Below, in pieces: positions 8,271 through 50,089 of a stretch of DNA of 64,000 bases. Both the position numbers and the translations under genes were made by a program. Origin of the DNA: Diphasiastrum complanatum (Eukaryota; Streptophyta; Lycopodiopsida; Lycopodiales; Lycopodiaceae); contig CM055102.1 in the NCBI GenBank assembly GCA_029204225.1, positions 8,877,456-8,941,455 on the forward strand. The letters are read 5' to 3'. Positions within the stretch are counted from its first letter, which is position 1. Every line of letters starts with the position of its first letter. Under the pieces are notes generated by a model that had not been told where the DNA came from, searched no databases, and was given only the letters and a program-made list of their open reading frames with translations.

Positions 8271-8600
8271 CTATGTTACAATTGCTTGGGTATACATGAC
8301 ACAATATGATTTTTTTGTAGTATACTGAAAATCGATTGATTGACAACAAAAGAGCATAGACATCATAGATATCTTGAAGACATAGAAGAAATGTACTTGC
8401 TCACATTGTTGAGGACAAACAAATGTATCACTTTGATCCGCCGTCCAAAGCTTGGTAGAGTCAATGGCAAAATAACCACTCTCATCTTTCCTGACAGTTG
8501 CATTGGGACCATTGCAAATAACTTTGAACCATTTGACATCAAATATGAAAAAGTTGAATTGCCTAAATCCAACTTTGAGGATGCATTGATTGTCCCACAA
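8271..8600 (-). pseudogene. CACTA copy A: DUF4216 exon
   Basis: The translated stretch contains FFIFDVKWFKVICNGPNATV, then DESGYFAIDSTKLW and DTFVCPQQCEQVHF. This pattern (FKCDWV..., VNF..L, DPFILASQAEQVFY) belongs to DUF4216, a domain near the C-terminus of plant CACTA TNP2 proteins. Copy B carries the equivalent at 17482-17808 with about half its residues identical. The open frame runs on past the exon into intron-like sequence after HFFYV. Confidence 0.8.
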
Positions 8601-8999
8601 TAATCAAGTTGAGAAGAGAGTAAATTGGTGTCCGCCGTTTGTCAATGTGCCTCATACAAAAGTGTTGTCAATGCTTCCACATTGCATTGTATTTTTTTGT
8701 AGTGAACGAAATAGAACTAAATGTGTTAGGGATACAACAAACATGTACAAAATTGCATTCACAAATGGTTTAATTAACATGTGAATTATGATCATGCACC
8801 CCCTTGCATATTCTCGCTCTCTCTCTGTTATTTTTTGGTTGTTTGCCGAGGCTTCTTCAAGGGCATCATGTAGCTAATCAAGTGTCATGTCCTTGGGTAG
8901 AAGGGCGAGGTCAGGAGGATATGCATATGGTTGTCTTCTATGCGCTCTTCTGAAAGTGGCTCGAGTTGTTTGTCTACGAGCCTTGGCCTCTTCGTATAG
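8601..8999 (-). pseudogene. CACTA copy A: intron and linker between DUF4218 and DUF4216
   Basis: The interval between the two recognised exons is AT-rich and mostly intron-like. Around 8890-9000 the minus strand is open and encodes basic residues, comparable with the helical region after DUF4218 in copy B (17999-18235). Exact splice sites were not resolved. Confidence 0.35.
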
Positions 9000-9300
9000 C
9001 GAAATTCACTTTTGCATTTTCTTGCTATTAAGAATGCAAAACTTATTTACTTTCTCCCTGAAGGACTCATTCATTCTCATGATCGATCCTTTTCGTTGAG
9101 GAACTTCCCCAACAACACGCTCATCATCTTTCTTATCCCAAAGATGAGGAATAAAAGGATTGCTATGAGCAAGGAACTTCGTGATGTAAACCATGGACTC
9201 TTGCACTAGCCTTCCTTCCGCCATGTTGTCTTACAAAGCCTTTCAATGTTTTCATGAATCGTTCCAAGAAAAACATCCAACGGCTATGGACAGTGCATGA
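9000..9300 (-). pseudogene. CACTA copy A: end of DUF4218
   Basis: The minus strand reads SRWMFFLERFMKTLKGFVRQ, then MAEGRLVQESMVYITKFL and SFREKVNKFCILN. This is the end of DUF4218 in TNP2-type transposases (family pattern RWMYPFERYMK.LKGYVRN, AEGYLAEECL.FCSRYL). Upstream of about 9300 the homology ends next to an unrelated gypsy integrase fragment, so copy A has lost its N-terminal catalytic half and cannot be active. Confidence 0.8.
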
Positions 9301-12353: not shown

Positions 12354-12945
12354 AAAAGAAAGGCATATGTTGTAGTGTGCTTTTGCTCAAGTTGATAGAT
12401 TGTATAGTATACATGGTTATTGTTCCCCAAAGAGATAGCTTTTCTAAATAATTGTAAGTTAATAATGCATTGTATGTGCTTTGGTTAAGAAACCTGGTTG
12501 TTAAAAAATATTAACTTCAGAATTGGCGACTATTATCACCAATGTAGATGATGTTTCCTTTAATAAGCTGTTTCGAATGATTGATTTGACAAATTCTAAT
12601 CAATCATATTCATTCTGTAATCGTGATACTATGGACTTGTGTGTCGATTCAAATAGGTTCAAATCGATATCATAATTATGTGTTTTAGACAAGATATATG
12701 ATTACTCTATCGAACAAGAAATAGAACGTTATTTTTTTAACAATTCTGAGAACAACCAAGTGGCTTCAACATTCTCTTATCGAGTCTAGTGCTTTGTCCT
12801 CATCAACAGAACAAGTACCTTGCTAGCTAATAGTTCTTTCAAATCCTCTTACGATTAAGTATTCGATACTTTAGGATATGAAGTAAGCATTTCAAGTTTT
12901 AGAATGAATAGTGATTCCATAACTCTAATCACAATGTACAAAAAT
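12354..12945 (-). repeat. Probable 5' LTR of the gypsy remnant
   Basis: This stretch of about 590 bases lies where the 5' LTR of the minus-strand gypsy element should be, between its primer site and the next element. It has no coding content. No second copy was found, so the LTR call rests on position only. The right edge abuts the copia G LTR. Confidence 0.35.
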
Positions 12946-13102
12946 TGTTGGAGTTAATCTTCACTCCTACTCACCTATATCCATTTCCTGAGTCCAAGTA
13001 TACTATGTAAATATTTTATCTTTACAAAAGCAAGCAGTCTTACTTGCATAACAGTCTGTGCAATACATCGACTCTGTATTATTTACAAAGAACCCAATAG
13101 AG
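12946..13102 (+). repeat. 5' LTR of copia G
   Basis: It begins TGTTGGAGTTAATC and is followed by a primer-site-like sequence. Its first 98 bases match the block at 23459-23558 with only about five differences. Past that point the 3' copy switches to another sequence, so only the 5' copy shows the distal part. At about 157 bases it is a short LTR. Confidence 0.75.
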
Positions 13103-14329: not shown

Positions 14330-14861
14330 GTACTACCATGAATGTTGAGTAGAATTCAATGATGAAGAACAAGACCTAGCGTCTTGTCAAGGCTCCTCTT
14401 GATGCAAAGATCATTGACACTAAGTTGATCTTCAAGTTGAAGCTCAATCCAGATGGTTCGACAACCAAATAGAAAGCTCGCTTAGTCATCAAAGGATATG
14501 AATAGATCTATGAGATTCACTATACTGAGACCTTCAATCCAGTCATAAGACTTCAGTCAATTTGATCTTTACTCGCTATCACAACTGCCGAAGACCTGAA
14601 AGTTCACCAGATGGATGTTCAAACAACATTTTTGAATGGATATATACAATAAGATATCTATATCTATCAACTTAACGGTTACGTCCTTCAAGGCCAAGAA
14701 CACAAAGTATGTAAGCTATTGAAAGCTCTTTATGGCCTAAAGCAAGCTCCAAGGGCCTGGTTCAATAGAATCAATCAATTCTTGTTGCAGCACGACTTCA
14801 TTCCTAACTCTGTTGACTCTAATGTTTATCTCAAACATAGAGGCCCAAGCTATGTAATAAT
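14330..14861 (+). pseudogene. Copia G reverse transcriptase, first part
   Basis: Codons show WCTTMNVE, IDTKLIFKLKLNPDGS, ARLVIKGYE, LAITTAEDLKVHQMDVQTTF and LKALYGLKQAPRAWFNRI, the fingers/palm of a copia RT. Three stops are present. The open part (14719 onward) runs to PSYVII, where CACTA element B interrupts it. The gene resumes at 22612 in the same reading frame with the YIDD catalytic box. Confidence 0.88.
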
Positions 14862-15185
14862 CACAATAACATATCGAGCGAATTCCGTTGTGGGCATCCG
14901 ACGTCTAGGGAAACAATCCAAAATGAGAGTCCGGTGATCAGAAAATTGTGGTGACAACCAATTTTTGAAGTGCACGTTGGAATCCGACATTCCGATGTGG
15001 ATATGGCATGGCATTGTTTTTATAAAATAAAAATTATGTGTCATCCAACATGGACATCGAAATCCGACGGATGTCAGAATCCGACGTCCACGTCAATCCA
15101 AAAACCTGTCCACGACATTTGCAATCTGGTGTCTGGGCCTGAACCAACACAGACGTTGGAATTCGACGTGTTTAAAAGATGTTGG
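14862..15185. repeat. Left subterminal repeats of CACTA B
   Basis: After the terminus, words of the type GGAATCCGAC, CATCCGACGTC and TCCGACGTCCACGTC recur in both orientations at irregular spacing to about 15180. The right end (22305-22530) has the same words. In En/Spm such arrays are bound by the accessory TNPA-type protein. Binding here is inferred. Confidence 0.7.
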
Positions 15186-15433
15186 AAGGCGACATATGTT
15201 TCATTTTCCAAATTCGTGTGATCCAGTGCCTTCTTTCTCACTTTCTTTTGTGCAAGTTGGAGCGTCTTTGGAGCGATTGAGGGCAATTGATTGCGATTAT
15301 TGACCAGCCGCTTGAAGATCAATGCTTGAGGTTGGTGCTTGAAGATATTGAAAGCTTTTGAACTTTTTGTTTTTGTTTTTGTTTGTTCTGCTTATTGTGT
15401 AGTGTTTTTGTTTGAATAGATATTGTTAAGTGT

Positions 15434-15586
15434 TTGAGAGAGAGAGAGAGAGAGATAGAGAGAGACAGAGAGAGAGAGAATGTGTTTTCGAATTTTGCAT
15501 TGATTTAGAATGGCTTTGAATATTGTTCTTCTTGTAATAGATTGTTAGTTTTATAATAGTGTTTGGTGATATATTATTAGATTTGT

Positions 15587-15684
<98 letters not shown>

Positions 15685-15763
15685 TGGAGTGTAGATATAT
15701 GCTTGAATATATTGAAAGCTTTTGGAGTTTATGTTTTGTTCTTTTTTTGAAAAATAAAGTTTT

Positions 15764-15814
<51 letters not shown>

Positions 15815-15956
15815 AATTTTGCATTGATTTAGAATAGTGTTTATAATATATTGTTAAAATTATTTAGAATAGTGTATGTGTGTGTTTGAGAGGAGGTGTA
15901 TGTGTTTTGAATTTTGCATTGATCTATAATTTAGGTTAATAGACAAATAGATAGAT

Positions 15957-16041
<85 letters not shown>

Positions 16042-16173
16042 TTTGGCATTTTGCATTGATTTAAAATTTAAGATTATTTATAAATATATAGTCTATGGTA
16101 GTAATAGATAGAAAGAGGGGGGGGGGGGGGGGGGGGAAGGGTGTATGTGTTGTGTTTTGCATTTTGAATTTAA

Positions 16174-16246
<73 letters not shown>

Positions 16247-16308
16247 ATTAAGATTTAGGGTAGTAGATGGATAGATAATGTTTGATGGCAATTGTATGTT
16301 AGATTTGT

Positions 16309-16382
<74 letters not shown>
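15434..16382 (+). repeat. Cluster of six GA microsatellites and one G20 run
   Basis: GA arrays lie at about 15435-15479, 15592-15680, 15763-15810, 15960-16031, 16177-16241 and 16314-16382. Unique spacers between them share the phrase TTTTGCATTGATTTA, so the cluster looks like an amplified unit of spacer plus GA tract. A run of 20 G lies at 16117-16136. The long Ser/Leu ORF on minus (16061-16291) is only a translation of the GA repeat. Confidence 0.9.
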
Positions 16383-16390
<8 letters not shown>

Positions 16391-17000
16391 GGCATAAAAT
16401 GAGAGAGTATTTGAAGTAGATTAGAATAATTTGCCTATAATAATGGTTCAATTGTGTAGTATAGTGTTATTTTTTAATTGTTTGTGCATGTGACAAAAAT
16501 ATTCAAAAAAGAAAGAAAGAGAGCAAGCATTGAAAGAGCGAGCAATTGCACGTTTGCACTTAAGCTTCGAGTGAGTTTATCGGCGAGTTTGTGTTGTTTC
16601 AATTTTTTTTATTATTCAAATACGTTATCCAACATAGTAAGAAATCAAATGTAATTCGTCACTTTCATTTTGTTCAAAGCAATGTCGTATTTTACCGCAT
16701 ACACTAGCAATTAGTTAATATGCAAGAGTGAAATGTAGATAATTAAAATTCCCAATCCTAGGAAGGTGTGTAGCCCATACTGAGCTTTTCTTCCGTTAAA
16801 GGCGAGGTTCTAATCTTTCCAGCTTGCATGGAAAAACCTACATGCCGCAGGGAGAGAATATGTTGTGAGATTCTGAATAGGGCATAACCGCAAGGTTTGG
16901 GTATTATAATTATCACAGTCAACTCTAACTATAAAAGTATACATAAAGTATTGCGATGAATACAAAAAAAATGAGTGCAAGTGAATTTAAGTATTAATAA
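16383..17000. other. Non-coding part of CACTA B
   Basis: AT-rich, no domain. It lies between the GA cluster and the last exon of the minus-strand transposase and probably includes its 3' untranslated region. Confidence 0.4.
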
Positions 17001-17255
17001 TCATAGATCATTCTCATCATTTACGTCATTCTCGTCATCACACAAGTCTTGACACTCATCTGAATCTAGGTCTAGGTATAATCGTAGATTTATCGTGTCT
17101 CTTTGATGATGTGAGCTACCCTCATATTCAATCTCCTCTTCTTTTAATTCTCTCTCATCCAAATGTGAGGGCCTCAAATTACCCCCAATCTGCTCTTGTA
17201 TGATTGTAGGAATCTCATCATTTCCATTTGTACCTTGTTCTCTCATCATTTCCAC
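17001..17255 (-). pseudogene. CACTA B: acidic C-terminal tail exon
   Basis: The open stretch is dominated by Glu and Asp and ends DECQDLCDDENDVNDENDL. It sits downstream of DUF4216, like the tail of copy A at 7871-8125. It has no known domain. Confidence 0.5.
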
Positions 17256-17481
17256 ATTTCTTCCAAAGTGTCCTCAAAAATGGGTAGTGGTTCATCGTGT
17301 GTATCCAATTCAATAATATTTTTTCCTTCAAACACATGTCATTTTCTTGCATCACATACCACCATCTTGGGTCTATTTGATTTGGGTGGAATATAATTTG
17401 TCAAGAATTAAAAAAGTTAAGTTAGTTTTATAAGATTGATACATAAATAATTGGATTGCAAATATTAATGACATTAGAATT

Positions 17482-17808
17482 TTAGAGTCTCACATGTTCG
17501 CAATGTCGTGGCAATACTAAAGTTTCATGAGAGTCCATCGATATACATTTTGTTGAGTCGATTTGAAAAAACTTTGAGTTATCATTTCTAATCGTGGCGT
17601 TGCTTCCATGATAGATGACCTTAAACCATTTTACGTCAAAAATAAAGTATTTGCTGTTAGTCTCGTAATTGACTTCATAAATATATTGCAATGTGCCGAC
17701 ATAGCCTAGGTCACCCGAAATGACATTAGGGTCCCTCGCACTAGAATGACACTCATATATATGTACGTCGCTTGTTGTCAACTCTCTCAACACGATAATG
17801 GTGTCCAT
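17482..17808 (-). pseudogene. CACTA B: DUF4216 exon
   Basis: Reads GDLGYVGTLQYIYEVNYE, FIFDVKWFKVIYHGSNATI, FQIDSTKCIS and ETLVLPRHCEHVRL. The GYVG start, the FDVKW core and the terminal C-E-x-V are DUF4216 marks. The same layout occurs in copy A at 8271-8600. Confidence 0.85.
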
Positions 17809-17998
17809 ATGCCCACATGGTCGTGTATGATGTATACTAAAACATTAAAAAAACAAATGTTTGTAATTAAAAATATTGTTTGTATATTGAGTAGTATTAA
17901 AATAAAACTTCACAGAAATAATACTACACTAACCTTCCATCTACATCTATGAACAAATTCCCATTATAATTTGATCACTTATTCGTTTTCGGATGCTT

Positions 17999-18480
17999 TT
18001 AGCATTGTATCAAAAACCCATTCACGAGAGCATTTTGAAGGTAAAGGCTCCAAAGGTTCGTCATTCTCCAACGCTCTCCTTCTTCTTCGATCGATATTTT
18101 TTTTCGTTTCAATATTATGTTTCTTTCCTTTTTGGCTTCTTCATACTTTGAAATCCACTTTTCCATTTGTCCATAGTTATATAACATGAATGTGTCAATT
18201 TTCTCTTTTAATTGAGGTGAAAGTCTCTTTTGCACACCATTTCCTTGTGGTACTTCACCCTTAACACATTCATCTTCTTCTTCACTTCACATTTTTGGAC
18301 TTGCAGGATGCAATTGTGAGATTATTTCGGTGATATAAAACAAAGATTCCGATACAAGCCAACTTTCTGCAATGCTATCTTTGGCCTTGCCTTTTGTCTC
18401 ACAAAGCCCTTCAAATAAAGCGCTCAAGGTAAAACATCTATCTCGTGTGCACAGGTCCTGCAATTGATACTTTTTTGACC
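17999..18480 (-). pseudogene. CACTA B: DUF4218 end and helical linker
   Basis: Codons give KGFVRQKARP, ESWLVSESLFYITEI, then LSPQLKEKIDTFMLYNYGQM and a basic helix EEAKKERNII. The first phrases match the end of DUF4218 (LKGYVRN..RPEG.I.E...EE). The following helix corresponds to the linker before DUF4216 in TNP2 proteins. Frames alternate, so exon limits or frameshifts are unresolved. Confidence 0.65.
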
Positions 18481-18499
18481 AAATGCACTAGAAGATGAA

Positions 18500-18975
18500 C
18501 TTGTATATCAAAAAAGGAAGTTGGAAAATCTCTTTCCAACAAACATACCATTTCGATCATTTGGATTTTCATAGAATCCAATTCACTATTTTTTATTTCT
18601 TTTGAGAAAATCCACCTGCAAGATTGATAGTACATTAGGTTGTTTAACACATAAAAATATTGAAATAACACATATTTATACAAGTGCTTAAGAAAATATA
18701 CAAACCTAATAATTGATGACAAATTGTAAAGCATATTTTGTACATCATCGTTGAAGAGACCTCAAATAGAAAGTGGAAGTATGAATTGCAACATTTTATG
18801 CCAATCATGCAATTTCAATCCACTTAATTTACCATCTTTGGTAAATGATTTGCATAAAGAATCTGCATAGCCTGTTGGAGTTCTCATTTGTTTTATGACA
18901 TGTTTAACATATGAGAGTTGCTCTTTTGTAAGAATCAACGACACGCTAAGTAGAATCTCATCTCCACCTTTGGTG
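18500..18975 (-). pseudogene. CACTA B: DUF4218 middle
   Basis: Two pieces are visible. At 18762-18944: LTKEQLSYVKHVIKQMRTPT, then SLCKSFTKDGKLSGLK and HDWHKMLQFILP (family pattern LK.HDCH.LMQ..LP). At 18500-18610: KIQMIEMVCLLERDFPTSFF followed by DIQVHLLVHLV (family pattern IC.LE..FPPSFFDIM.HL..HL). An intron with GT-AG-like ends separates them near 18620-18740. Confidence 0.85.
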
Positions 18976-18983
18976 TATTGACT

Positions 18984-19440
18984 CTAATAGGGTCTTTTCA
19001 CATCGGCCGCTTGTAGATCTTTATGAGCTACAAAGTTGTCTTTTATGCCAATGATGTGGTTCCATAAGGATTCACCAACCTTTTTGAATATGTGCATAGG
19101 ACACAATAGATGGTTTATGAATAAATTCCTCCAATAGGATAATTTATGAAAAATAGACAACTGTTTCATACCATCAATGGATTCATTCCATGAAGAATTA
19201 GCGTCATGATGTTTAGGCCATTCACCATGCCATTCTGCTACTCCCATGCGTGGGGCTGGTGGTGTAGTTAGAGGATTATCTCCTCGTCCTCCAAAAAATT
19301 GCCTATTCAACCTTCGAAAAAGATGACCAAGCGGCAAATATTTGTGATGATTTTTGTACACCACTTTTTCAACATATTTGTGCTATGTCAACCCTCCAAA
19401 AGTGGTCCACAAATATAACATGCATTGTAACCCGATGTGG
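18984..19440 (-). pseudogene. CACTA B: Transposase_21 end and DUF4218 start
   Basis: The exon begins near 19440 with TTSGYNACYICGPLLEG, the CPVC-type region of TNP2. It then has a stop and frameshift. Next come MGVAEWHGEWPKHHDANSSW and YWRNLFINHLLCPMHIFKKV, GESLWNHIIG (family pattern YW..LL.RHNLDVMHIEKNV). Fragment E at 37963-38380 repeats this exon and the intron before it almost word for word. Confidence 0.85.
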
Positions 19441-19564
19441 TTAAACCTACATAGTTCATAAACCAAATTGAACATAAGCTTAGTTAAATATACTCAAATG
19501 CTAAACCCTAAAACGAGTTAGATTAATTATATAGATACATGAACATTCGATTAAACTGGAGTAG

Positions 19565-19860
19565 TCATGCATCCTCCATATTAGAATTCCACGAACAATG
19601 ATTGTACTTTCTTGGAATCAATAAAGCCAATAACAAGTGTCCCGTTTTTATACTCAACCATGGAGGCATGTTATAACTAACGAGCACAACTAGCCATGTG
19701 GACCAAGTTGACGCTTGAACTCTAAAATGATTTACGCCATCCATAGCAAGACCAAATCTCAAATTACGAGGTTCATTTTTAAACTCGGGCCATTGGCCTT
19801 CAATATGTTTCCATGCAGGTGAGTCACTTGGTACTCGCATCACATCATTCGTAGATCAAT
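19565..19860 (-). pseudogene. CACTA B: Transposase_21 core exon
   Basis: Reads DSPAWKHIEGQWPEFKNEPR, NLRFGLAMDGVNHFRVQAST and WLVVLVSYNMPPWL, then LLLALLIP. These match the TNP2 core (AWKHFD...FA.DPRNVRLGLA.DGFNPF, YNLPPWMC, LLIPGP). After LLIP the homology stops abruptly, which marks the internal deletion. Confidence 0.9.
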
Positions 19861-19877
19861 TTTTTACATGCAATCCA

Positions 19878-20165
19878 TTAGTTGTGCCAAATATTTATAT
19901 CAAAAACATTGCAATCGTGGGATAATTGAAAAAAATCATAACACTTTTTGTGGCACTTTATCCCCTTGTACGTAATCTCGAAAACGTGAAGCATTATACA
20001 TTGGACATTGAAGCTTTTCTGAATGCTCACCTCTATATAGAACATGGTCTTCTGGACATGCATGTATTGTGTCATAATCCATTCCAAGCACGGTCATCAT
20101 CTTTCGTGCTTCTTTTCGTGTTTTAGGTATCACATTTTTTTTCAAAAGTATTTGATGCAACAACC
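19878..20165 (-). pseudogene. CACTA B: Transposase_21 N-terminal exon
   Basis: Reads LHQILLKKNVIPKTRKEARK, then MDYDTIHACPEDHVLYRGEH and LQCPMYNASRFRDY. This is the start of Transposase_21 (P.....AKK.L..LGL.YE.IH.C..DC.LFW....NL..CP.C...R). The exon follows an AG acceptor near 20163. A frame change occurs near KVPQKV/CYDFF. Confidence 0.85.
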
Positions 20166-20249
20166 TAAAAAAAGAGCAATGTGAGTTGTTAGAAAAGAAA
20201 AAAAATCAAATTAATGTAAATATGCTATAAAGTACAATAGTTGTGTTAT

Positions 20250-20709
20250 GTGTTAAGTACCCAAATAATGATGTCACGCTACGGTCACTCCATTTGTATG
20301 TTGCTTGAAGGTTTAGAATAAGAATTGACGTAGCTAGTCTCAAAATGGATGCTCCAAGATACAAAGGAGTGTCTGCCTCCTTGCGCAATAGAATCTCGTC
20401 TTCATCCATCTCAAATTGTTCGTGATCTCTGTTTTCATTAGAAGATGCGTGCATAACATCATTCTCATGTGTTTCAAAGTAGGATTCAAACATGCTATGC
20501 ATTGCTTCATCGTGTTGCACCTTATCATCATCATCATTAGAATCAAGTTGATTACTCTTTTTCCCAATTGTGTTTGTCTTTTGAATTTGTTTCGTTCTTT
20601 GTTCTCTCATGTCTATCAAAACTTGACGTTGATTATAACTAAACACGGATGAATCAACTCTGTGGAATGGCATTCGATTTATTGGATACACACATGAAAT
20701 AAATTTCAT
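20250..20709 (-). pseudogene. CACTA B: acidic linker exon
   Basis: Encodes MPFHRVDSSVFSYNQRQVLI followed by acidic and Asp-rich sequence, then ASILRLATSILILNLQATYK and WSDRSVTSL, the usual lead-in to Transposase_21 (A...LL.LK..N..S...F). Fragment D has the counterpart at 34376-34680. Confidence 0.7.
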
Positions 20710-20774
20710 AAATGACGTATATAGATTGACAAATTTTATAATAAAAAACTATCATATATAGTTAACAAACCTCA

Positions 20775-20890
20775 ACGTCTTCCAAATTCGATGGTTGACC
20801 TTCTTCTTTTCGTCCAAATTTCCACAAATGATTTTCAACAATGCGCCTTTCATGCATATTTTGTCCATCACACTTGACGCATGTGCACTA
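20775..20890 (-). pseudogene. CACTA B: Transpos_assoc zinc exon
   Basis: In one frame the minus strand reads CTCVKCDGQNMHERRIVENH followed by LWKFGRKEEG. This fits the transposase-associated domain of TNP2 proteins (CPC.KC.N......T...HL...GF), with the cysteine pair and histidine kept. It is the first recognisable exon of the transposase. The start codon was not located. Confidence 0.7.
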
Positions 20891-20963
20891 TATTTTATTT
20901 TGAAAATAATTTTTCTACGAGAAATAAAAATCAAGTACATGTCACTTTAGCACTTATTATGAC

Positions 20964-21640
20964 ATGGATCCTGAAGGTAACATAATTGCCAACAAGAAAG
21001 GGAAGGTGGTTTTGGACCGACTCTATTCTTTATGCCAACGCCATTTTGGCAACAAATTGTTTAATAAATGGTCCAAACAATCTACTGATCTTAAACAACA
21101 GGTTGTTGGTACCCTTCGTGATGAATTCCAGCAAGAAGAGGAGTTCGACAAGAAGGAAATTCATAATCATATGAGCTTATAAATTAGGCATCATCGTGAT
21201 ATGGCACGACAAGCTTATAGGGATGGGCAATCCAAGCCCTCCTACTGTTCATGATTGGAACTGTGTAAAAGTGGATGAATGAATACCAGATAAATACAAG
21301 ATTCAGAAAGATGTCGCGGCCGCTAGGATGCATAGGATAGGCAATCCTAGGTCAGGCTCGAGCGGAAAGATGAGATTGCAAGCAAGTATGGTATTTGAAC
21401 CTAAACTGCTATTATAGTTTATCTTTGATTTCATATGCTTTTATTTTTTAATATGCATTATGACTAGCTGCTCCAACTTAGCCCTAAATTAATTTCAACT
21501 TAAAATGAGTGCATGGATAGTTGGCGGACTATGGACGTCTGTCAACTAAGGAGAAGTACGACTTTGCCTTCAAGGAGTCATACGAGGCATTAGTCGACAA
21601 ATAAAGAGCGAGGTTCATCCGCCAAATGTAAGTACTAGTT
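20964..21640 (+). pseudogene. Transposase_24/TNPA-like ORF of CACTA B
   Basis: On plus, 20964-21182 encodes LDRLYSLCQRHFGNKLFNKW and LKQQVVGTLRDEFQ. After a stop the frame continues IRHHRDMARQAYRDGQSKPS and a basic stretch ending near a GTATGG donor at about 21390. A second exon near 21525-21630 gives GRLSTKEKYDFAFKESYEAL. The layout resembles the Ptta/En/Spm (Transposase_24) accessory ORF that binds subterminal repeats. It is transcribed away from the TNP2 gene, with about 75 bases between their first exons. It has stops and is not intact. Confidence 0.55.
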
Positions 21641-21644
21641 TTTG

Positions 21645-22270
21645 TATTCATACTAATGTGGTTTGTATTCATACTAATTATATTCAGTTTAGTACGATCG
21701 AGCATTTAATATTAATGTAGTTTGTTTGCTTGTGTTCATGCAAACTGGACGTCATGACGATGACGAGTAGATTAGGTTTATAAGTTTTAGTTGATGTTAG
21801 ATCCAGAGACTTATGCGAAATTAAAGCTCCAATTTTGTAATACATTGACTGATATTATGAATATATTATTATTGCAAATGATCGTGCTATATTGCCATTG
21901 CTTTTATATGTGCAATATTCTTTTTTCAAAATTTGCAATGTCAAATTTCAAGATGTGGATTGACGTATAACTAACTAAGAATACAAGACCATTTCAAAAC
22001 AAGAATCAATATCATATATAGAAATTTCAATGAAATTTATGATGTGCATAAAGCAATGCAATAAATTATTGTCATTCAAAATGCACATGAAGTAGTGCAA
22101 TAAAATATAGGAATGAAAAGTAATATATGTGCATTAAGTAATTTAGAAATGAAAAGTATCTCATGCTTAGCTTGTTATTTGATCCAAATGTTGAATGCAA
22201 CTCAAAAATATTGTTTCAAAAACAATCCATGAACATCGCTTCTCCAAAAACACCACTCCAAGAACAGCTC
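21645..22270. other. Non-coding part of CACTA B
   Basis: AT-rich, without domains. It contains two near copies of the phrase TTTGTATTCATACTAAT around 21640-21680. It leads into the right subterminal repeats. Confidence 0.4.
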
Positions 22271-22611
22271 AATAAAAATGTGTGCACTGTTTTTTATGCA
22301 TTTTTCATCGTCGAAATTCGACATCCACGTCGGATTGGATGTCACATCTTTGGACGTAGTATTCTGACGTCCATGTCAAATGTCGGATTCCAATGTCCAT
22401 GTAGGATGTTGGAATCTAACGTCCACGTCGGACCTAACGTCTGGGAAGCCGACAACTTATGTATGTTGAACTTCGACGTGTTTTATATTTGTCGGATTCC
22501 GACGACCTCATTGTCATGTGTTTTTTCGACGTCCGTGACGAATTTAAAAAAAAATGAAGCTCGTGATTCACATCACAAAACACGTCACAAATCATGGCGG
22601 GTGTTGTAGTG
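22270..22611. repeat. Right subterminal repeats and terminus of CACTA B
   Basis: GTCGGATTCC, CGACGTCCAC and their complements recur about ten times from 22305 to 22530. The element ends GGGTGTTGTAGTG at 22611, directly followed by AAT. A 149-codon plus ORF (22163-22609) runs through the repeats and is not a gene. Confidence 0.8.
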
Positions 22612-23458
22612 AATAGCTCTATACATTGATGACTCCTTAAATATCATCAATAATTCGAATCAGTTGCTTAATGAGACAAAATTTCTATTGTGGAAGGAAT
22701 TCGAAATGATTGATTCAGGCCTAGTGCATTACCTTCACAAGATCGAGATAACTAGAGACAGAGCTAATAGAAGGATTGTGATATAAGGCCAAGAAAGGTA
22801 TCTAACCAATGTACTCTATAGGTATGGCATGGAAGACTGCAAGTCAACAAACACCCCTATGGATACAGGATTCAAATTGTCGAAGGACAGGTGCCCGAAG
22901 ACTGAAGCAGAGAAGAAGGGGATGTGCAAATACCCCTATCAGTCTATAAGTGTTGGATCGATCATGTATGCCATGGTTTGAACATGACTTGATCTATCCT
23001 ATATAGTCAACACACTGTCACAACTCCTGTCAATCCCGGCCTACCTCACTAGAAAGTTCTGCTTAGAGCATTAAGATACATTCAGGCACTATAATCTGTG
23101 TTATAATGGAAATACAGAGAGGACACTCTAACATTACCTGTTGATTCCGCTCTGGGCTCAGAAGATTGCTCCATGACCTTTTGAGCTCTCAATTCATACC
23201 AACTACAATCTATTCTGACAATCAGAGCTACATTGCTCTATCTCTAAACCCATGAATTCACCTTAGAGCTAAACACATTGAAGTTCAATTTCATTTTCTT
23301 AGAGAGAAAGTTCTAAACAAGATTGTGGAATTAAGTTACTGTCATATTGATAGTATGTTGGTTGATATTTCGACTAAACTCTATCAAGGGATAAGCATGT
23401 TACTTTATGCAACTTATTAAGTTTCATTCAAGATCCTAGGAATTAAGCTTAAGGGAGA
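22612..23458 (+). pseudogene. Copia G reverse transcriptase second part and RNase H
   Basis: It resumes after CACTA B with ALYIDDSLNIINN (the YIDD catalytic box), FEMIDSGLVHYLHKIEI, VLYRYGMEDCKSTNTPMDTG and QSISVGSIMYAMV. RNase H follows with YSDNQSYIALSLNP and LRAKHIEVQFHFLREKV. Stops occur at several places. A polypurine tract (GCTTAAGGGAGAG) at about 23449-23461 precedes the 3' LTR. Confidence 0.88.
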
Positions 23459-23558
23459 GTGTTGAAGTTAATCTTCACTCCTACTCACCTATATCCATTT
23501 CCTGAGTCCAAGTATACTATGTAAATATTTTCTCTCTATAAAAGCATGCAGTCTTATT
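23459..23558 (+). repeat. 3' LTR of copia G, truncated
   Basis: It starts TGTTGAAGTTAATC after the polypurine tract and matches 12946-13045 with few differences. After GCAGTCTTA the match ends and copia F LTR sequence begins. The LTR lost its distal part when F sequence was joined here. Confidence 0.8.
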
Positions 23559-24099
23559 CGATAAGTCGATGCTGGTTTTAAATATACCTCCAGCTCGCAT
23601 CAATCGATGATGCTCCACGATGCAAACTAATTCGTCAGAGCTGAAAATATTTAGCATCCAAGTTATGCCTCCATTCTGGTTATAACAATTTGTGTTGTTC
23701 AAGATTTCTGTGTAATATACAAGCAACATGTTCTTTCTATCTATGTCTAATGTAGAGATTTGTGTTGTGATCTGATTACACTTTCCTACTGCTAGCTCAC
23801 ACTCGTTCATTCACTATGATCAAAATACGGATGTCTATGACTCCTCAGTTTTTGATCAGACAATAGCTGTCTATGATGCCTAAGGCATCAGCATTATCAA
23901 ACTACATTATCGTTCTAAAATTGTAAATTAAACTTCATAACTAGAACTATTTTACAATGATTCCACATCTTATCTAATTTCTTCAGTGGACTGTACTCAT
24001 GTTTGTCTGAGTACGAACTATTTCCTTGGTCCTGTTGCGAGCGTGAGCTATTTCGCACTATATATATATATATATATCTCTCTCGTTTCATCTCCATCA
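23559..24099 (+). repeat. 5' LTR of copia F (5'-truncated)
   Basis: It matches 25990-26538 (GATGATGCTCCACGATGC, CATCCAAGTTATGCC, TATCTAAT, GTTTGTCTGAGTACGAACTA) and ends CTCCATCA two bases before an exact primer site. The 5' end is missing or fused to the copia G LTR. A TA run of about 20 bases lies near 24057-24077. Confidence 0.8.
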
Positions 24100-24101
24100 G
24101 G

Positions 24102-24113
24102 TGGTATCAGAGC
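24102..24113 (+). other. Copia F primer-binding site
   Basis: TGGTATCAGAGC is the canonical initiator-Met tRNA primer site of plant copia elements, placed directly after the LTR. Confidence 0.9.
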
Positions 24114-24159
24114 ATCAGCTCAATAAACCAAAAGATTATCTATTTGAATTATTGTCAGT

Positions 24160-24988
24160 ATGTCTCTTATGGGTAACTCCTCATCTTCTCCATCCAACGA
24201 AGTTAGGATCATTGACAAATTCAATGGGTCTAACTTTTATATCTGGAAGTTAAAACTCCGGATGATACTTATAGATAGAGATCTTTGGGAAGTTGTAGGC
24301 GGGTTAGTCTCGAAACTAGATGACGATGATCATGAGATAGCAAGGCATAGAAGATCAAAGATCAGAAGGCCCTAGCATCGATCACGTTGAATATGTCCGA
24401 CTCCCAAATATCTCACATCACCACATGCAATTCCTTTAAGGATGCATTAGATTTGTTATCAAATCTCTATGAGACTCAAGAATTGACCACACGGTTACAC
24501 CTTAATACACTTAGAATGTCTGATTCTACAACCATCACTTCTGACATCAACAGCTTCAAATCTTTATTAGATCAATTTTCAGTTGTAGGATGTGCTATTC
24601 AAGATGATAATGCTATTATGACCTTGCTTTCTTTTTTACCAAAGTCCTATGGGCACTTTTTCATGATGATCTCCACTCAACCTGACCCGACTCCTCAAAA
24701 GGTCATCGACCATCTTCTTCAAGAAGAATGCAGAGAAAGATCAGTGATCTGTCTGTCAAAGACAAGTCCCCAGTCCTATACACCAAGAAGAGAGACTATT
24801 CCAAGGGCAAGAATCAAGTGCAGCAACAGCAACAACAGAACCCTCACCCTCAATCAGAGACCAGTGGATCATGGAAAAAGCTCTCTTGTAGATACTATAA
24901 GAGGGCTAACCATGACATCAAGGAGTGTCGTATCTGCATCTACAACGAGGTAAAGAAGATCAAATCTAATGGTTCCATTGAAAAATGA
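24160..24988 (+). pseudogene. Copia F gag
   Basis: The ATG at 24160 opens a gag with IIDKFNGSNFYIWKLKLRMI and RDLWEVVGG (DUF4219/UBN2 start). It breaks near 24375 and continues at 24387 with MSDSQISHITTCNSFKDAL and LLSFLPKSYGHFF. It then shifts frame at about 24730 to a basic tail with CRYYKRANHDIKEC, a zinc knuckle with one cysteine lost. Gag packages element RNA. Two frameshifts make it non-functional. Copia G gag (13179-13990) is a relative. Confidence 0.85.
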
Positions 24989-25029
24989 AAAGCATTGTTG
25001 TTGACTAAAGTTTCACTCAAATCCAAGGA

Positions 25030-25279
25030 GTGGACTATCAAGAAATTTTTAGTCATGTTGTCAAAATGCAGTCAATCAGGACTCTGATTGCATTAGCGGT
25101 AGTGGAAGACCTCAAAATTCATCAAATGGATGTGAAGACAACATTTCTCAATGGCTACGTTGAAGAGGAGCTATACATCTTCCAACTAGAAGGATTCAAA
25201 GTCAAAGACCAAGAGCACAAAGTGTGCAAGCTGCACAAAGAGATCTATGGCTTGAAACAAGCCGCAAGGGCTTGGTTCG
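25030..25279 (+). pseudogene. Copia F reverse transcriptase fragment
   Basis: The frame has LIALAVVEDLKIHQMDVKTT, FLNGYVEEELYIFQLEGF and IYGLKQAARAWFE, the fingers and palm start of a copia RT. It ends near 25279 before the YVDD box. The end of gag lies only about 40 bases upstream, so protease and integrase are deleted. After 25279 the sequence is unrelated. Confidence 0.85.
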
Positions 25280-25989
25280 AAACCGAATTACATGGTAATC
25301 ATTCATGTTTTGATTTACATTCGAATGTCAAGTTATGTGAAGAACATTGAAGATTTGGCCATCTTCAACAACTCCAACAAGTCACTATATCCAAGCAGTC
25401 TACACAAAAACACTATCTTCGCAACAATCTACAAAAATAAACTGATTGTGGCACAGTTCACATTTTTTGCAAACTCCCAAAAAATGTGACAATTTTCCGA
25501 TAGTGACTTCTTTTCAAATGATTAAAGAAGTAAATTATTTGTCGACTTTTTTGCATTTTCCTGAAAAATGCAACAATCCAGTCTACTTCAGCAAATGAAC
25601 TAATTGTCAGCTTTTTCACAATTTCCTAAAATGTGACAGTTCAGCCTATTTCAACAAATGAGCTATTTGTCTTCTTTTTTGCATTTTTCCAAAATGCGAC
25701 AATTCAGTCTAATTAAACGATCGACAATGTTTACTACTTCGGCCAAATGCGAAGTATGCGACAATAGGTTTTGCTTCAAAGTTCGATTATTCCAGTCACT
25801 TTCAAAAAACCCAAAAAATGCGAAGTGAGAGACTGAAGTGAGAGAAGAAATGTGACAATCTTCCTATTTCACTGACTTTAAGTTATAGTTTGATTTTTTC
25901 TTGTACAGGTGTCATTGTACTTTAAATATTTCTCAAGTACAACAAAGTACATAGTTAATGATAAACTAGTCTTATAAATATAAGATTAG
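25280..25989. repeat. Repeat-containing insert in copia F (about 77-base tandem units)
   Basis: Between the broken RT and the 3' LTR lies non-coding sequence. From about 25470 to 25720 a unit of roughly 77 bases recurs three to four times: AATGTGACAATT or AATGCGACAATT, a Cag/TCTA phrase, CAAATGA..TATTTGTC, then a T-run with GCATTTT. An isolated version follows to about 25860. It may be part of a different, non-autonomous element. Confidence 0.6.
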
Positions 25990-26538
25990 TTAGACATTTC
26001 TTGTAATCGTAGGCATGCTGGTTATAAATACACCTCCAACTCACATCAATCGATGATGCTCCACGATGCAAACTAATTCGTCAGAGCAAAAAATATTTAG
26101 CATCCAAGTTATGCCTCCATTCTGGCTGTAACAATCTGTGTTGTTCAAGATTTATGTGTAATATACAAGCAACACGTTCTTTCTATCTATTTCTAATGTA
26201 GAGATTTATGTTAGATCTGATCACACTTTCCTACTACTAGCCCACACTTGTTCGCTCACTCTGATCAGAACACGGATGTCTACGACTCCTTAGTTTCTGA
26301 TTAGACGACGGTTTTCTATGATACTTGAGGAACCAGAATTATCAGACTGCATTATTGTTCTAAAATCTTGAACTGAACTTCATAACTGAAACTATTTTAT
26401 AGTGATTCCACACCTTATCTAATCTCTTCAGTGGACTGTATTCATGTTTGTCTGAGTACGAACTATTTCATTGGTCTTGCTGCGAACAGGAGTTGTTCCA
26501 CACTATATTTCTCTCTCTCTCCCACTTCGTCTCCATCA
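25990..26538 (+). repeat. 3' LTR of copia F
   Basis: It matches 23559-24099 along its length and ends CTCCATCA. The start is approximate. Sequence TATAAATATAAG near 25973 may be the LTR promoter if the LTR begins earlier. Confidence 0.8.
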
Positions 26539-31239: not shown

Positions 31240-31700
31240 ACACTCACCGAAGAAAAACAGAGTCGTAGAACGAAAGAACAGATCTATTTTTGAGATGGCA
31301 AGGGCGATGCTCAAAAGCAAGGGTTTGCGCAGAAGTCTGTAGCACAGCTATGCACATCTAGAATTGGTGTTCTACAAAGTATGTGGAAGGTAAGACATCT
31401 CATGAAGCTTTTACTGGAAAGAAACCTAATATTTCTCATTTGAGCGTATTTGGTTGTGATACTTATGCTCATATTCCTAATGAGAAATGAAGGAAATTGG
31501 ATGCAAAAGCTATCAGTTGTATTTTCTTTGGATATGATGAGAAGGCCAAGGCATACATAATGTACGATATGAATGCACAGAAGCTTGTGATTTCTAGAGA
31601 TGTTACATTTGATGAGATGGGTCGAGATGAACAAATTGAAACAATCATAAAATCTTTTGATGAGCGAGCGAAAGTACAGATCAAGAAAGTACACTACATG
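31240..31700 (+). pseudogene. Copia I integrase C-terminal region
   Basis: Reads RVVERKNRSIFEMARAMLKS, then (frameshifted) FTGKKPNISHLSVFGCDTYA, and in 31497-31709 DAKAISCIFFGYDEKAKAYI and VISRDVTFDE. These are the distal integrase motifs of copia elements. At about 31690 the sequence jumps, through the shared word ACACTACATGCC, into TNP2 transposase sequence. Confidence 0.85.
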
Positions 31701-31755
31701 CCATTGTAATGTGGCCAATGCATGACTATCCAGGATTAAGTGAATGCTCAGGTAA
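31690..31755 (+). pseudogene. Displaced TNP2 exon piece (fragment C)
   Basis: Read in the right frame this gives LHAIVMWPMHDYPGLSEC, the same protein piece that occurs in its normal place at 32480-32535. Here it precedes intron 1 of the transposase, so it has been copied or moved upstream. It is the junction between copia I and fragment C. Confidence 0.7.
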
Positions 31756-33105
31756 TTCATCTACTTGTCATATTTACTTTGAAACAAACTTCACAATTTG
31801 AACATTTAATGATATTTTTTTAATAGGATTTTTTTTTGCCATATACAGACAATGAAAAACAAAATTCTTCCAAAAGGGAATGTCATGCCTGAGACAAGAG
31901 ATGAGGCACTGAAAATGTTCACTAACATCGGGATGGACTACAAGCAATATCATGCATGTCCAAAGGATTGCATTTTATATCGAGGAAGGTACCAATCACT
32001 CAAGAGATATCCCATATAGAGATGATTTGCAAGGGGCAACCATTCCATGCAAAATTTTACGACATTTTTCAATAATTCCACGATTGCAATGTTATCTCAT
32101 TGTAAATCTCTTACACAACTTATGGACTGGCATGCACACCATACCTTTAGATTCACCTACATGGAAACACATCAGCAAAGAGTATTCAAGCTTTGCCAAT
32201 GAGTCAAGAAATGTGAGATTTGGTCTTGCAATAGATGGTGTGAACCCCTTTGGTATACGAGCAACTACGTGGTCCATTTGGCATGTTTTCTTGGTAAATT
32301 ATAATATTCCTCCTTGGTTGAGTACAAAAAAGGGACACATTATGTTGGCACTTCTAATTCCTGGCCAACGCAAGGTTAAGAACATGGATGTGTATCTTGA
32401 GCTACTTATTGACGAGTTGGAAGATGAAGGGGATAAAAGCATATGACATTTTGCGCCCCTTACATGAGAGGGAGCTTACACTACATGCCATTGTAATGTG
32501 GACAATGCATGACTATCTAGGATTAAGTGAATGCTTAGGTAATAATTCAAACAATGTCTATCTTGTGTACATAGGAGTTTGTTTACAGTTACATAGAACT
32601 AGTTTTTGGCATTTATATGATATACTACAATGGCACAAATTATTCTTTGACATATACTTTTTTTTAATAGTGATTGGTAATACCCATTTGTTGGGTAGGC
32701 TTTCAAACGGCTGGAAAAAATGCTTGTTTTTTGTGTGGGCCAAATCTTGTGGGAAGATGCTCTCATAGTCTCAAAAATGTTGTTTATGAAAGTCATCGTA
32801 AAGACTTGCATGAAGGCCATCCATTCAGAGACACTCATAGAAGAGGTTTTGGAAGAAGAGTTGAGAGAGAGATGCCTTCAAAGAGGATGTCTGTGGAAGA
32901 TTGGCGAAAACTATGGGAGGAATCTCAAGCAAAGCCAATCGATGGTATGAAAAAATTATTTATATTTCATCATTTGGAATATTGGAATAATCTTTTGATT
33001 AATCACCTACTTGATCCCATGCACATATCTAAAAATGTGGGTGAATCTATATGGAAACACTTGATTGGTTGTATGCTAGAATTGCATAAATCACTAAGTT
33101 CTTAA
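31756..33105 (+). pseudogene. CACTA TNP2 transposase, fragment C
   Basis: Exon order is normal after an AT-rich intron. VMPETRDEALKMFTNIGMDY and CPKDCILYRGRYQSL (Transposase_21 start) come first. DSPTWKHISKEYSSFANESR, NVRFGLAIDGVNPFGIRATT, NIPPWLSTKKGH, LLIPGQ and DVYLELLIDELE form the core. LHAIVMWTMHDYLGLSEC, ACFLCGPNLVGRCSHSL and EYWNNLLINHLLDPMHISKN (start of DUF4218) follow. Stops and frameshifts are present. Unlike copy B it retains the DVYL region. It ends near 33105 next to an H LTR. Confidence 0.88.
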
Positions 33106-33324
33106 TACTTCATCATAAAATCTAGAAAGTCTAGATGTAATGTATCAAATTTAGCCAATTAGAATGGGTCCAAATCTGACCTCATCTAGTTATCTACTTG
33201 CCAAAAATAGTGAAAACACTATTTAGGACTTTAGTGACAAATATGAACCTATCTTTAAGTTGGGATTTCATCTAGGCCTTTAAATTGCCAAATAAAAAAT
33301 CAAACTAGTTGACAATTTATCACA
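33106..33324 (-). repeat. Copia H LTR start (fragment of H3)
   Basis: On minus it starts TGTGATAAATTGTC after the polypurine tract GTTGAAGAGGGAG (33325-33340). It matches the first 200 or so bases of the H1 and H2 LTRs (CAACTAGTTT, GGCAATTTA, TTTGGACCCATTC). The rest is lost at the junction with fragment C. Confidence 0.75.
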
Positions 33325-33356
33325 CTCCCTCTTCAACTAGTTTTAGCATAGATTTA

Positions 33357-33361
33357 GATAG
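33357..33361 (-). other. Target duplication, inverted copy (GATAG)
   Basis: Reverse complement of the CTATC at 30613-30617. Together they bracket the outer edges of two oppositely oriented copia I LTRs. Confidence 0.7.
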
Positions 33362-33615
33362 TGTCAATAATCATATAAGCAACATCAAGCATTCACCATA
33401 AGCAATCACCAAAGAAGGCGGAAGAAGAATGCACACTATCACTCATCACTCTATTGCATACTGAATGTAAAATATACAAATAAACCCTGAACCCTGATAG
33501 AGAGAGAAAACCTAGGAGTAGACTAATAGACTAGCCTATGACTAGTTACAACTGGTAACAGCTGAGAATAGTAACTAAAAAGTGTAACAATGAAGTTTAT
33601 CATTGATTTCTAACA
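33362..33615 (-). repeat. LTR of copia I, minus copy
   Basis: On minus it starts TGTTAGAAATC after a polypurine tract (CATTGAGGGAGAG) and ends TATTGACA. It is about 20 bases shorter than the plus copy. Position makes it the 3' LTR of an element that should run in the same direction as the 5' LTR but is inverted. Confidence 0.9.
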
Positions 33616-33905
33616 CTCTCCCTCAATGATAAAATTACATTCTTCTATTCCTAGTAGAGTACGAAACTTTTCAAATTTACATCTGCCTAATGACTTGGTA
33701 AAAATATTTGTCACTTGATCTTCAGATTTACAAAAAACAAGATCAATGGCTCCATCAAGGATTTTCTCTCGAACAAAATGATAACGTATATCGATGTGCT
33801 TGGTTCACACATGTAGAACTGGATTTTTGGGAAGGTGAATGCACCTTTGATTGTCGCAAGATATAGTAGTCACACGTGGGTGACCTAAATCCACAACCAA
33901 TCTTT
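33616..33905 (-). pseudogene. Copia I RNase H C-terminus
   Basis: Minus-strand codons read TTISCDNQRCIHLPKNPVLH, then (after a stop) TKHIDIRYHFVREKILDG and IFTKSLGRCKFEKFR. These are the end of the copia RNase H domain. Upstream, at 33905, the sequence switches to TNP2 fragment D through the word GCAAGGGGC. Confidence 0.85.
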
Positions 33906-34680
33906 GCCCCTTGCAAATCATCTCTATATCAAGGAGTATCACAGATGGGACATCTCTCGAGTGATCGGTATCTTCCTCGATATAAAATGGAATCCTTTGG
34001 ACATGCATGATATTGCTTAGTCCATCCCGATGTTAGTCAACATTTTTTGTGCCTCATCTCTTGTCTCTGGCATGACATTCCTTTCTAGAAGAAATTTGTT
34101 TTTCAATAGTGTACACATAGCTAAAAAAATCCTATTAAAAAACTATCATTAAATGTTCAAATTGTGAAGTTTTTTTTAGAGTAAATATGACAAGTAGAGG
34201 AAAACAAATACTCAAATAATGATGTGAGGATTTGGTCACTCCATCTATATTTGGCTTGAAGATTCAATAGAAGTAGAGAAGTCGCCAAAAGAGATGTCTT
34301 TGCTCCAGAGTACAATGTTGTCTTTGATTCTTCTCAGAAATTCTTTTCTTCTTTAGAAAAATGTGCCTCCTCATCTTATTCATTATGTCTAGCTGCACTA
34401 TTATTCTCGTACATAGCATCCAACATGTCTCCCATGGCTTCAAATTCTTCATTCATTGGAAGCTCATTTTCATTGGTGGAACTTGTTTGCGAAGAGGTAG
34501 ATGAGCTAGATTCAAATGCATTAGTCTCTTGATTAATGCGCTCATCAATTTCCATCATCTCTATTAAGCCTTGACGTTGACGACAAGTTAATTGCTTTAT
34601 ATGAGGACTGTTGTATGACATTCATCGTCTACGTCGACCAATACAAGGACTATTGTCTCCAACGCTAAATGAGGATGAAG
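33906..34680 (-). pseudogene. CACTA TNP2 transposase, fragment D (N-terminal part)
   Basis: From right to left the fragment holds three parts. An acidic, Ser-rich linker exon comes first (QLTCRQRQGLIEMMEIDERI at 34376-34621, like QRQVLIDMREQR in copy B). An intron near 34110-34200 follows. The start of Transposase_21 comes last (MPETRDEAQKMLTNIGMD at 33960-34090). The last part is nearly identical to 31860-32040 of fragment C, in inverted orientation. Confidence 0.8.
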
Positions 34681-37840: not shown

Positions 37841-38380
37841 CGAATGTTCAAGTATGTATAAAATCATACGAATCCATTTTAGGGTTTAGCGTTTGAGTAC
37901 ATTTGACTAAGTTTATCTCACATTTGGTTTATGCATTATGCAGGTTTAACCACATCGGGTAACAATGCATGTTACATTTGTGGACCACTTTTGGAGGGTA
38001 GACATAGCACAAATATGTTGAAAAACGTGATCTACAAAAACCAACGCAAATACTTGCCACTTGATCATCCTTTTTGAAGGTTGAGAATAGGCCATTTTTT
38101 GGGGGCTACACCACCACCCTCACGCATGGGAGTAGCGGAATGGCATGGTGAATGGCTTAAACATCATAATGTTAATTCTTCATGGAATGAATCCATTGAT
38201 GGTATGAAACGGTTGTCTAATTCTCATAAATTATCCTATTTGAGGAATTTATTAATATATCATCTACGGAATCCTATGCACATATTAAAAAAACGTCGGT
38301 GAATCACTGTAGAACCACATCATTGGCATAAAAGACAACTCCGCAGTTCGTAAAGATCTACAAGCAGCCGACATGGAAAG
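37841..38380 (+). pseudogene. CACTA TNP2 transposase, fragment E (left part)
   Basis: It starts inside the intron that precedes the ACYICG exon of copy B (shared TTTTAGGGTTTAGC). The exon follows: TTSGNNACYICGPLLEGRHS, NMLKNVIYKN, MGVAEWHGEWLKHHNVNSSW, NESIDGMKRL and RNLLIYHLRNPMHILKK. A stop lies in the GESL-NHIIG region. Copia A interrupts it at 38381, and it resumes at 44347. Confidence 0.88.
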
Positions 38381-39068
38381 TGTTGAAAGTACAGTACGAA
38401 GGATCATAAATGGATCTTTGAATGATCCACAAGGTTGATTGTGTGCTTGATTAATAATCTATCAGATACTAGTCAACAAATCAAGATCTAGTTTAGCAGC
38501 TTGATAGAAAACAAGTAGAGACAATCAAAGCATTGATTAAAAACTTTATCCTTAGTTCACACGTGTGAAAAGCAAGCTGCTATATGGCCTGTAGACAGAG
38601 TTTGAAGTGTGCCAAAGCTGGGTTTCATTGGAATTAGTCACTATCATTATACAAAGAGGAAAATCCGAGTTTCTCCTTAAGGTTCCAGAAAGTTTCTATC
38701 TTCTCACTATGGAGAATGGAAATACATAGTAAAAGACACTTTCTTTGCAAAGTTAGGTGAAAATCCAACATGTAATAAGGAAGTAGACTCAACTTTCTTG
38801 CCCTAAAGTAAAAACCCTAGCCTAGATCCTAGAGTCATGCTTGGTAGGTGCATGGTAGGTACAAATCTCATCATGAATCAAGGTCTAGATCCTACAAAGT
38901 AGGAATCACTACCAAATGGACACAACCACTCCTCTTGACTCATGGTAACCTACATTAGGTGTAGATTGCCATGTGGCACTTTGGCCATACAAGTGACTAA
39001 CAAGAAATATTGACAATATGTACAATATTCTACATGACTAGATTTGCCAATGTAGGCAATTTTTCACA
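38381..39068 (-). repeat. 3' LTR of copia A
   Basis: 688 bases. The plus strand reads TGTTGAAAGTACAG to AATTTTTCACA. It is followed on plus by CTCCTCCTCAAATC, the complement of the polypurine tract. It differs from the 43671 copy by small changes, including an extra AAGTAAAAACCCTAG-type segment. Confidence 0.92.
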
Positions 39069-40484: not shown

Positions 40485-41237
40485 CTACTTGCAATCAAGT
40501 GGTTTATTCCCTTGAGGAAGATTCACAAGATCCCAAGTATGATTCTCAATGAGAGCATCATACTCTACTTTCATAGCATCCATCCAACTCTTGGATCTAC
40601 AAACATCTTCATAGCATGTTGGCTCATCTAACATTGAAGCAAGAAAGGTGTAAGATGTGAAAGATGACGAGCCTTCTCTTTGATCACCTTGACCATCATA
40701 GATGAGCCTCAATGGCTTGGTCCTTGCCCTTGTAGATCTTCTTAGAGTTCTTGCATCTTGATGTGGATCCTCAAGTTCTTCTTCACTTGGAAGCTCCTCC
40801 TCCATCCTAGCATGATCCTTGGCATCAAGATGATTAGTAGCATTATCATCCAAATCACAAGCAATTCCTTCATAAAAAATAACATCCCTACTCACTATCA
40901 CCTTGCCAGTGATGGGATTGAAGACTCTATATCCTTTGTTATTCTCACCATATCCCACAAAGATGCCTTTGATGGAGGTTGCATCATCCTTCTTCCTTGT
41001 ATCCAAGAATTGGTCTACATAACAAGTGGATCCAAAAACTTTGAGATCCTTGAAATTGGGCTTCTCTCCAAATAGAGCTTCAAATGGTGTGATTCCTCCA
41101 ATGTCTTGGTTAGGCAATCTATTGCACAAATAATTAGCACAAGTAATTGCCTCACTCCAAAATGGTTTGGATAGAGAAGCATCTAGCCTTAAGGCCTTAG
41201 CATGCTCACAAATAGATCTATTTCTTCTCTCACTCAC
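40485..41237 (-). pseudogene. Copia A integrase C-terminal half and linker
   Basis: A 250-codon open frame: SERRNRSICEHAKALRLDAS, KPFWSEAITCANYLCNRLPN, TPFEALFGEKPNFKDLKVFG, GIFVGYGENNKGYRVFNP and VIVSRDVIFYE. An acidic linker and the RT start (KSWMDAMKVEYDALIENHTW) follow. It breaks near 41237, where the preceding catalytic E region is shifted to a neighbouring frame. Confidence 0.9.
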
Positions 41238-41338
41238 TCCATTTTGCTGAGGGGTGCCATAGACATGACAACTCTCTCTTTATGCCATTAGAACTACAAA
41301 AGTCAATCAACTTATTGGAGATATATTCACCTCTGTTA

Positions 41339-41677: not shown

Positions 41678-41680
41678 AGA

Positions 41681-42385: not shown

Positions 42386-42433
42386 TGTCTTCTTCTTGCC
42401 TTTGAATGAGAAATTTTCTTTCTCATCACCATC

Positions 42434-43657: not shown

Positions 43658-43670
43658 GGCTCTGATACCA
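43658..43670 (-). other. Copia A primer-binding site
   Basis: On minus TGGTATCAGAGCC directly follows the LTR end CAACA. It is the canonical initiator-Met tRNA site. Confidence 0.95.
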
Positions 43671-50076: not shown

Positions 50077-50089
50077 TGGTATCAGAGCC
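50077..50089 (+). other. Copia A2 primer-binding site
   Basis: TGGTATCAGAGCC, identical to that of copia A and directly after the LTR. Confidence 0.95.

Follow-up and report, generated by a model that had tools for sequence, protein, structure and literature searches.

Is the DNA that splits the reverse transcriptase (RT) gene of a copia retrotransposon in the lycopod Diphasiastrum complanatum a single inserted transposon, and how much of its boundaries, length and relative age can be read from one locus? The question is raised by a 64,000-nt stretch of contig CM055102.1 (assembly GCA_029204225.1, forward-strand positions 8,877,456 to 8,941,455; referred to below as the window), in which a resident element, copia G, is interrupted within its RT by a segment carrying CACTA-type transposase pieces, element B. 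From the sequence features assembled here, we put the probability at about 0.95 that B is a dead, decayed CACTA (En/Spm) transposon that inserted in the RT gene of an older resident copia with duplication of the target AAT.

The host reading frame defines an empty site

When 300 bases of each flank were joined after removal of B and one AAT, one frame read PSYVIIALYIDDS over the junction, and the copia RT residues spanning the insertion site became PSYVIIALYIDD. Three pieces of the copia G RT, scanned separately, match positions 67–92, 96–160 and 165–216 of the RVT_2 profile in that order. At the breakpoint itself, residues 2–66 of the 69 residues in the left piece (14653–14859) match RVT_2 96–160 and the last three correspond by extension to 161–163; the insertion falls inside the codon after these, and the right piece (22616–22783) begins with its first residue at position 165, as expected from the left piece. 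An original prediction, made from the window alone, had placed B inside the copia RT between its PSYVII and YIDD regions, with the host frame in register once one AAT is removed, and these adjoining positions and the continuous joined frame bear out both claims. The predicted flanks and size also stand, as 7,750 bp lie, base-exact, between the AAT copies at 14859–14861 and 22612–22614.

Among the copia matches within the window, copia F alone spans the insertion site: on the minus strand (40343–39789) it aligns gap-free across it (37% identity, E=6.6e-41), the nearest gap, of three residues, lying a few residues downstream. A further copia at 25081–25281, 63% identical to copia G, was considered as an empty-site control and rejected, its match ending at residue 68 of the joined-flank query and the site lying at residue 100. 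The proposed alignment of the joined flanks with other copia copies therefore yielded, within the window, a relative that has no sequence between the flanks. With the copia G RT interrupted by B and copia F free of an insert at the same site, the claim that copia G is the older of the two holds, and we regard the order of events, copia G first and then B, as secure.

Terminal and subterminal repeats of element B

Since the transposase lies on the minus strand, the 5′ end of B is its right side. The element begins with CACAATAACA and ends with TGTTGTAGTG, the reverse complement of which is CACTACAACA; a longer stretch of the right terminus in reverse complement, CACTACAACACCCGCC, is a canonical CACTA end. 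The anticipated combination of a CACTA-type right terminus and a decayed left one was thus recovered, as an exact CACTACAACA on the right and an 8/10 match on the left. When both strands of the window were searched, the exact 10-mer occurred at two sites, 12368–12377 and the right end of B. Matches of at least 8/10 occur at 40 of 63,991 plus-strand positions, with the left end of B counted in, and AAT directly precedes six of these 40. Taken alone, the left-end match is weak evidence; what strengthens it is that the copia protein places the breakpoint independently. Furthermore, ten CACTA-like ends (four starts, six ends) were listed with their three neighbouring bases, and in this comparison, confined to those bases and with boundaries worked out for B alone, the start and end of B are the only start–end pair to share all three.

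The outer parts of B are also linked by repeats. Units resembling TCCGACGTCCA, counted at up to two mismatches, number four in the left 350 bp, nine in the right 350 bp, one in the middle of B and three in the 56,250 bases outside it, which places 13 of the 17 window occurrences within the two outer 350-bp segments. Aligned in inverted orientation, the outer ends scored 46, whereas the best of 500 dinucleotide shuffles reached 35, and they are joined by a 27-nt inverted match that is 89% complementary. The direct-orientation score of 32 falls inside its shuffle range (maximum 34, again from 500 shuffles) and was matched by 1/500 random pairs of window segments, a null drawn from outside the B region with genuine repeats included. 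B shows the subterminal repeats typical of CACTA elements, with 10–20-bp units at each end and in either orientation. By analogy with TNPA and TNP1, an accessory DNA-binding protein encoded by the element most likely binds these repeats; such a role for subterminal repeats has been proposed for CACTA elements in the portions of PMC2613891 drawn on here.

A broken transposase on the minus strand

Read from right to left on the minus strand, the domains of B follow the order Transposase_21, DUF4218, DUF4216, which is also the order in which they are listed in the part of PMC8978399 used for comparison. Ten stop-free pieces of B (nine minus, one plus) were scanned against Pfam, two of which gave a match above the curated cut-off (Table 1). 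The two N-terminal pieces (20209–20748 and 19939–20205) both match other CACTA remnants in the window, at 31.8–34.6 kb (tblastn). Frame changes and stops separate the pieces of the coding sequence, and the Transposase_21 region is about 102 nt shorter than that of the 32-kb remnant (29 nt at 19625–19597 in B vs 131 nt at 32350–32480). Elsewhere in B, six long GA tracts fall within less than 1 kb (15436–16383) and may reflect duplication of a GA-bearing unit.

Table 1 Features of element B and its copia host (window positions; a dot marks a feature given without strand)
Feature	Position	Strand	Remarks
copia G 5′ long terminal repeat (LTR)	12946..13042	+	stretch alignable gap-free to 3′ LTR
copia G 3′ LTR	23460..23556	+	alignable stretch
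Host copia G RT, 5′ part	14566..14861	+	one in-frame stop, 14650–14652
Host copia G RT and following open frame, 3′ part	22615..22978	+	one in-frame stop, 22784–22786
Target-site duplication, left copy	14859..14861	.	AAT; exact cut of sequence
Target-site duplication, right copy	22612..22614	.	AAT; exact cut of sequence
Element B, decayed CACTA (En/Spm) transposon (probable)	14862..22611	-	7,750 bp; from ends, transposase, subterminal motif, RT breakpoint
Left terminal inverted repeat	14862..14871	+	CACAATAACA; 8/10 match to CACTACAACA
Right terminal inverted repeat	22602..22611	-	exact CACTACAACA in reverse complement
Left subterminal repeat zone	14886..15193	.	TCCGACGTCCA-like units, both orientations; 4 with up to 2 mismatches in 14862–15211
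Right subterminal repeat zone	22306..22537	.	TCCGACGTCCA-like units; 9 with up to 2 mismatches in 22262–22611
Six GA microsatellite tracts	15436..16383	.	interspersed TTTGCATTGATTTAGAAT-like unit copies
Transposase C-terminal piece	17485..17844	-	weak DUF4216, E=0.0032, below curated cut-off
Transposase piece	18441..18761	-	DUF4218, E=1.2e-14
Transposase piece	18987..19382	-	weak Transposase_21, E=0.011, below cut-off; profile 163–192 of 213
Transposase piece	19568..19855	-	Transposase_21 / tnp2, E=1.3e-26; profile 2–81 of 213
N-terminal transposase pieces	19939..20748	-	no Pfam match above cut-off
Second open frame, divergent from transposase	20928..21179	+	no significant Pfam family

Weighing the assignment

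CACTA membership of B rests on transposase homology, the duplication, the right end and the subterminal repeats; the left end is treated as a decayed one. The features given for CACTA elements in the consulted part of PMC8978399 (terminal and subterminal repeats, transposase domains, 3-bp duplication) were found in B, CACTA itself being intact at one end only.

Several observations weigh against this interpretation. The first five letters at the left end are CACAA rather than CACTA, the extreme ends share little identity by eye beyond the terminal 10 bp, and the outer ends were defined from a single full-length copy. When three mismatches are allowed, the subterminal motif becomes less clean (9 left, 12 right, 9 in the middle, 69 outside), and the inverted score of the two ends was equalled by 5/500 of the random segment pairs. 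As for the domains, the RVT_2 cut-off is passed by the 14653–14859 piece only, the other two of the three RT pieces falling below it (E=0.02 for the weakly matching right piece), and both DUF4216 and the second Transposase_21 piece lie below their curated cut-offs. We take CACAA as a probable decayed CACTA, since the transposase, the duplication, the frame and the subterminal repeats all point the same way.

The degenerate left terminus would also suit a composite B, whose right and left ends would come from separate CACTA elements brought together by a deletion or by subsequent insertions, the matching AATs being a coincidence; the fewer subterminal units on the left (4 vs 9) and the many broken, nested repeats in the window point the same way. 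We nevertheless judge such an origin very improbable, as the same rare subterminal motif stands at both ends, the 27-nt inverted match connects them and removal of B with one AAT restores the copia frame exactly. The chance that the halves of copia are independent pieces which happen to be neighbours, B being no insertion into copia at all, is close to negligible: the decay and shortening of copia G to about 2.9 kb could be read in this way, but the halves meet at neighbouring positions of RVT_2, with a single codon divided between them, and are flanked together by LTR-like ends (12946–13042 and 23460–23556) that are 95% identical.

Insertion, decay and age

Under the favoured reading of a nested CACTA insertion, a CACTA transposase, either B's own or that of a relative, would have inserted B by cut-and-paste into a copia already in place, and a staggered 3-bp cut at the target, once filled in, would have left AAT/AAT. 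Fill-in of staggered cuts as the source of target duplications is established enzymology of the CACTA superfamily. Stops and frame changes now interrupt the transposase, which is also about 100 bp shorter than that of a sister remnant; this damage may have arisen before or after the insertion. With its transposase broken in these ways, B is most likely unable to move on its own now. Use of the site as a marker of insertion polymorphism, which the original prediction had suggested, appears doubtful, because B, with a heavily broken transposase and one degenerate end, may have inserted long ago and gone to fixation.

The alignable LTR stretches of copia G differ at 5 of 97 sites (95% identity; 95% interval of the difference 1.7–11.6%). 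At assumed rates of 6.5e-9 and 1.3e-8 substitutions per site per year, this corresponds to an age of about 4.1 or 2.1 million years (limits 0.7 to 9.7), a weak absolute estimate, 97 sites being too few to lean on. It is an upper bound for the insertion of B only if both stretches stem from one insertion event. Judged by eye, the 5′ LTR may extend as far as about 13096, with a degenerate primer-binding-like site following near 13103. Similarity to it stops at 23564, the 3′ LTR being incomplete, and a different LTR-like repeat (23569–24099) starts just after. Coordinate arithmetic (12946 to about 23567, minus B and one AAT) gives the length of copia G quoted above, and open pieces are present upstream of its RT. 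The short copia-like element at 23569–26538, which either adjoins the copia G 3′ LTR or cuts into it, carries LTR-like repeats (23569–24099 and 26015–26538) that are 85% identical and a gag fragment (Retrotran_gag_2, E=5.2e-20).

The locus shows nested insertion in textbook form: a protein reading frame fixes the empty site to the base, so that the order of events is secure and the length of the element can be annotated cleanly. Such nesting is common in plant genomes; knowledge of CACTA elements is unchanged, and B is a well-preserved but ordinary case of nested mobile DNA.

A divergent open frame

The only odd trait of B is its second open frame, on the plus strand. No significant Pfam family was found for this frame and the pieces downstream of it, and the frame has no Pfam match to TNP1 or Transposase_24; its sole match, THAP at E=0.05, is below cut-off and was disregarded. 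The sequence downstream is broken in all three frames. A CACTA element with its own second gene divergent from the transposase was not found in searches of open-licence papers for divergent gene order, nor in the portions of PMC8978399, PMC2528002 and PMC2613891 drawn on here. The portion of PMC2528002 used describes, for grapevine, two Cactavine-5 copies in which a captured gene fragment runs opposite to the transposase, and capture is a real possibility here too. The frame may accordingly be captured sequence, on the analogy of Cactavine-5, or it may have arisen by chance. It is unlikely that B represents a CACTA lineage in which the second gene, instead of lying downstream of the transposase and in line with it, is transcribed divergently from a shared central promoter near 20.75–20.95 kb, with a DNA-binding protein of a kind other than TNPA, TNP1 or Transposase_24 as its product.

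Other mobile-element remnants in the window

A second copy of part of the B transposase region occurs at 37841–38380 and 44347–44563 (83% and 91% identical to B 18994–19549 and 18781–18998, respectively). It is split by a copia with LTRs at 38381–39068 and 43671–44346, whose flanks, GAAAG and AAAGA, are near a 5-bp duplication. The B-family homology of this copy ends at 44563, and CACTACAAGA, which starts at 44564, is possibly the end of a further CACTA-type element inserted in it. Another decayed CACTA transposase lies at 31690–34264 (Transposase_21, E=5.3e-35 at 31952–32443), with internal duplications in direct (31690–31756/32477–32543) and inverted (31756–32039/34202–33904) orientation, and a minus-strand CACTA remnant at 8388–9134 is related to the C-terminal pieces of the B transposase (tblastn E=2e-17 and 2e-9). 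The copia copies at 40609–44346 and 49419–53052, which face opposite ways, are 87% identical over 3.7 kb.

Comparison with known systems

As a Ty1/copia element, copia G has an RVT_2 reverse transcriptase and LTR-like ends, and it departs from the type in being apparently shortened internally, in its in-frame stops and in its incomplete 3′ LTR. Jozin CACTA elements of Chenopodium (PMC8978399) share with B Transposase_21, DUF4218 and DUF4216 as well as subterminal units of 10–20 bp in both orientations; intact CACTA at each end was a criterion in their selection, whereas B has it at one. The Cactavine families of grapevine (PMC2528002), described as 10 to 25 kb in length, are longer than B, and resemble it in consisting mostly of defective elements with few intact transposase open reading frames and in 3-bp duplications where these are given. 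Tgmt* of soybean (PMC2613891) differs from B in length (20.5 kb vs 7.75 kb), in that B has a broken transposase and a degenerate left end, and in that the second frame of B points away from the transposase and has no Pfam match to TNP1 or Transposase_24. Like B, Tgmt* combines CACTA-type termini with imperfect inverted repeats, a tnp2 transposase, a 3-bp target duplication (ATA in Tgmt*, AAT in B) and asymmetric subterminal repeats in direct and inverted orientation.

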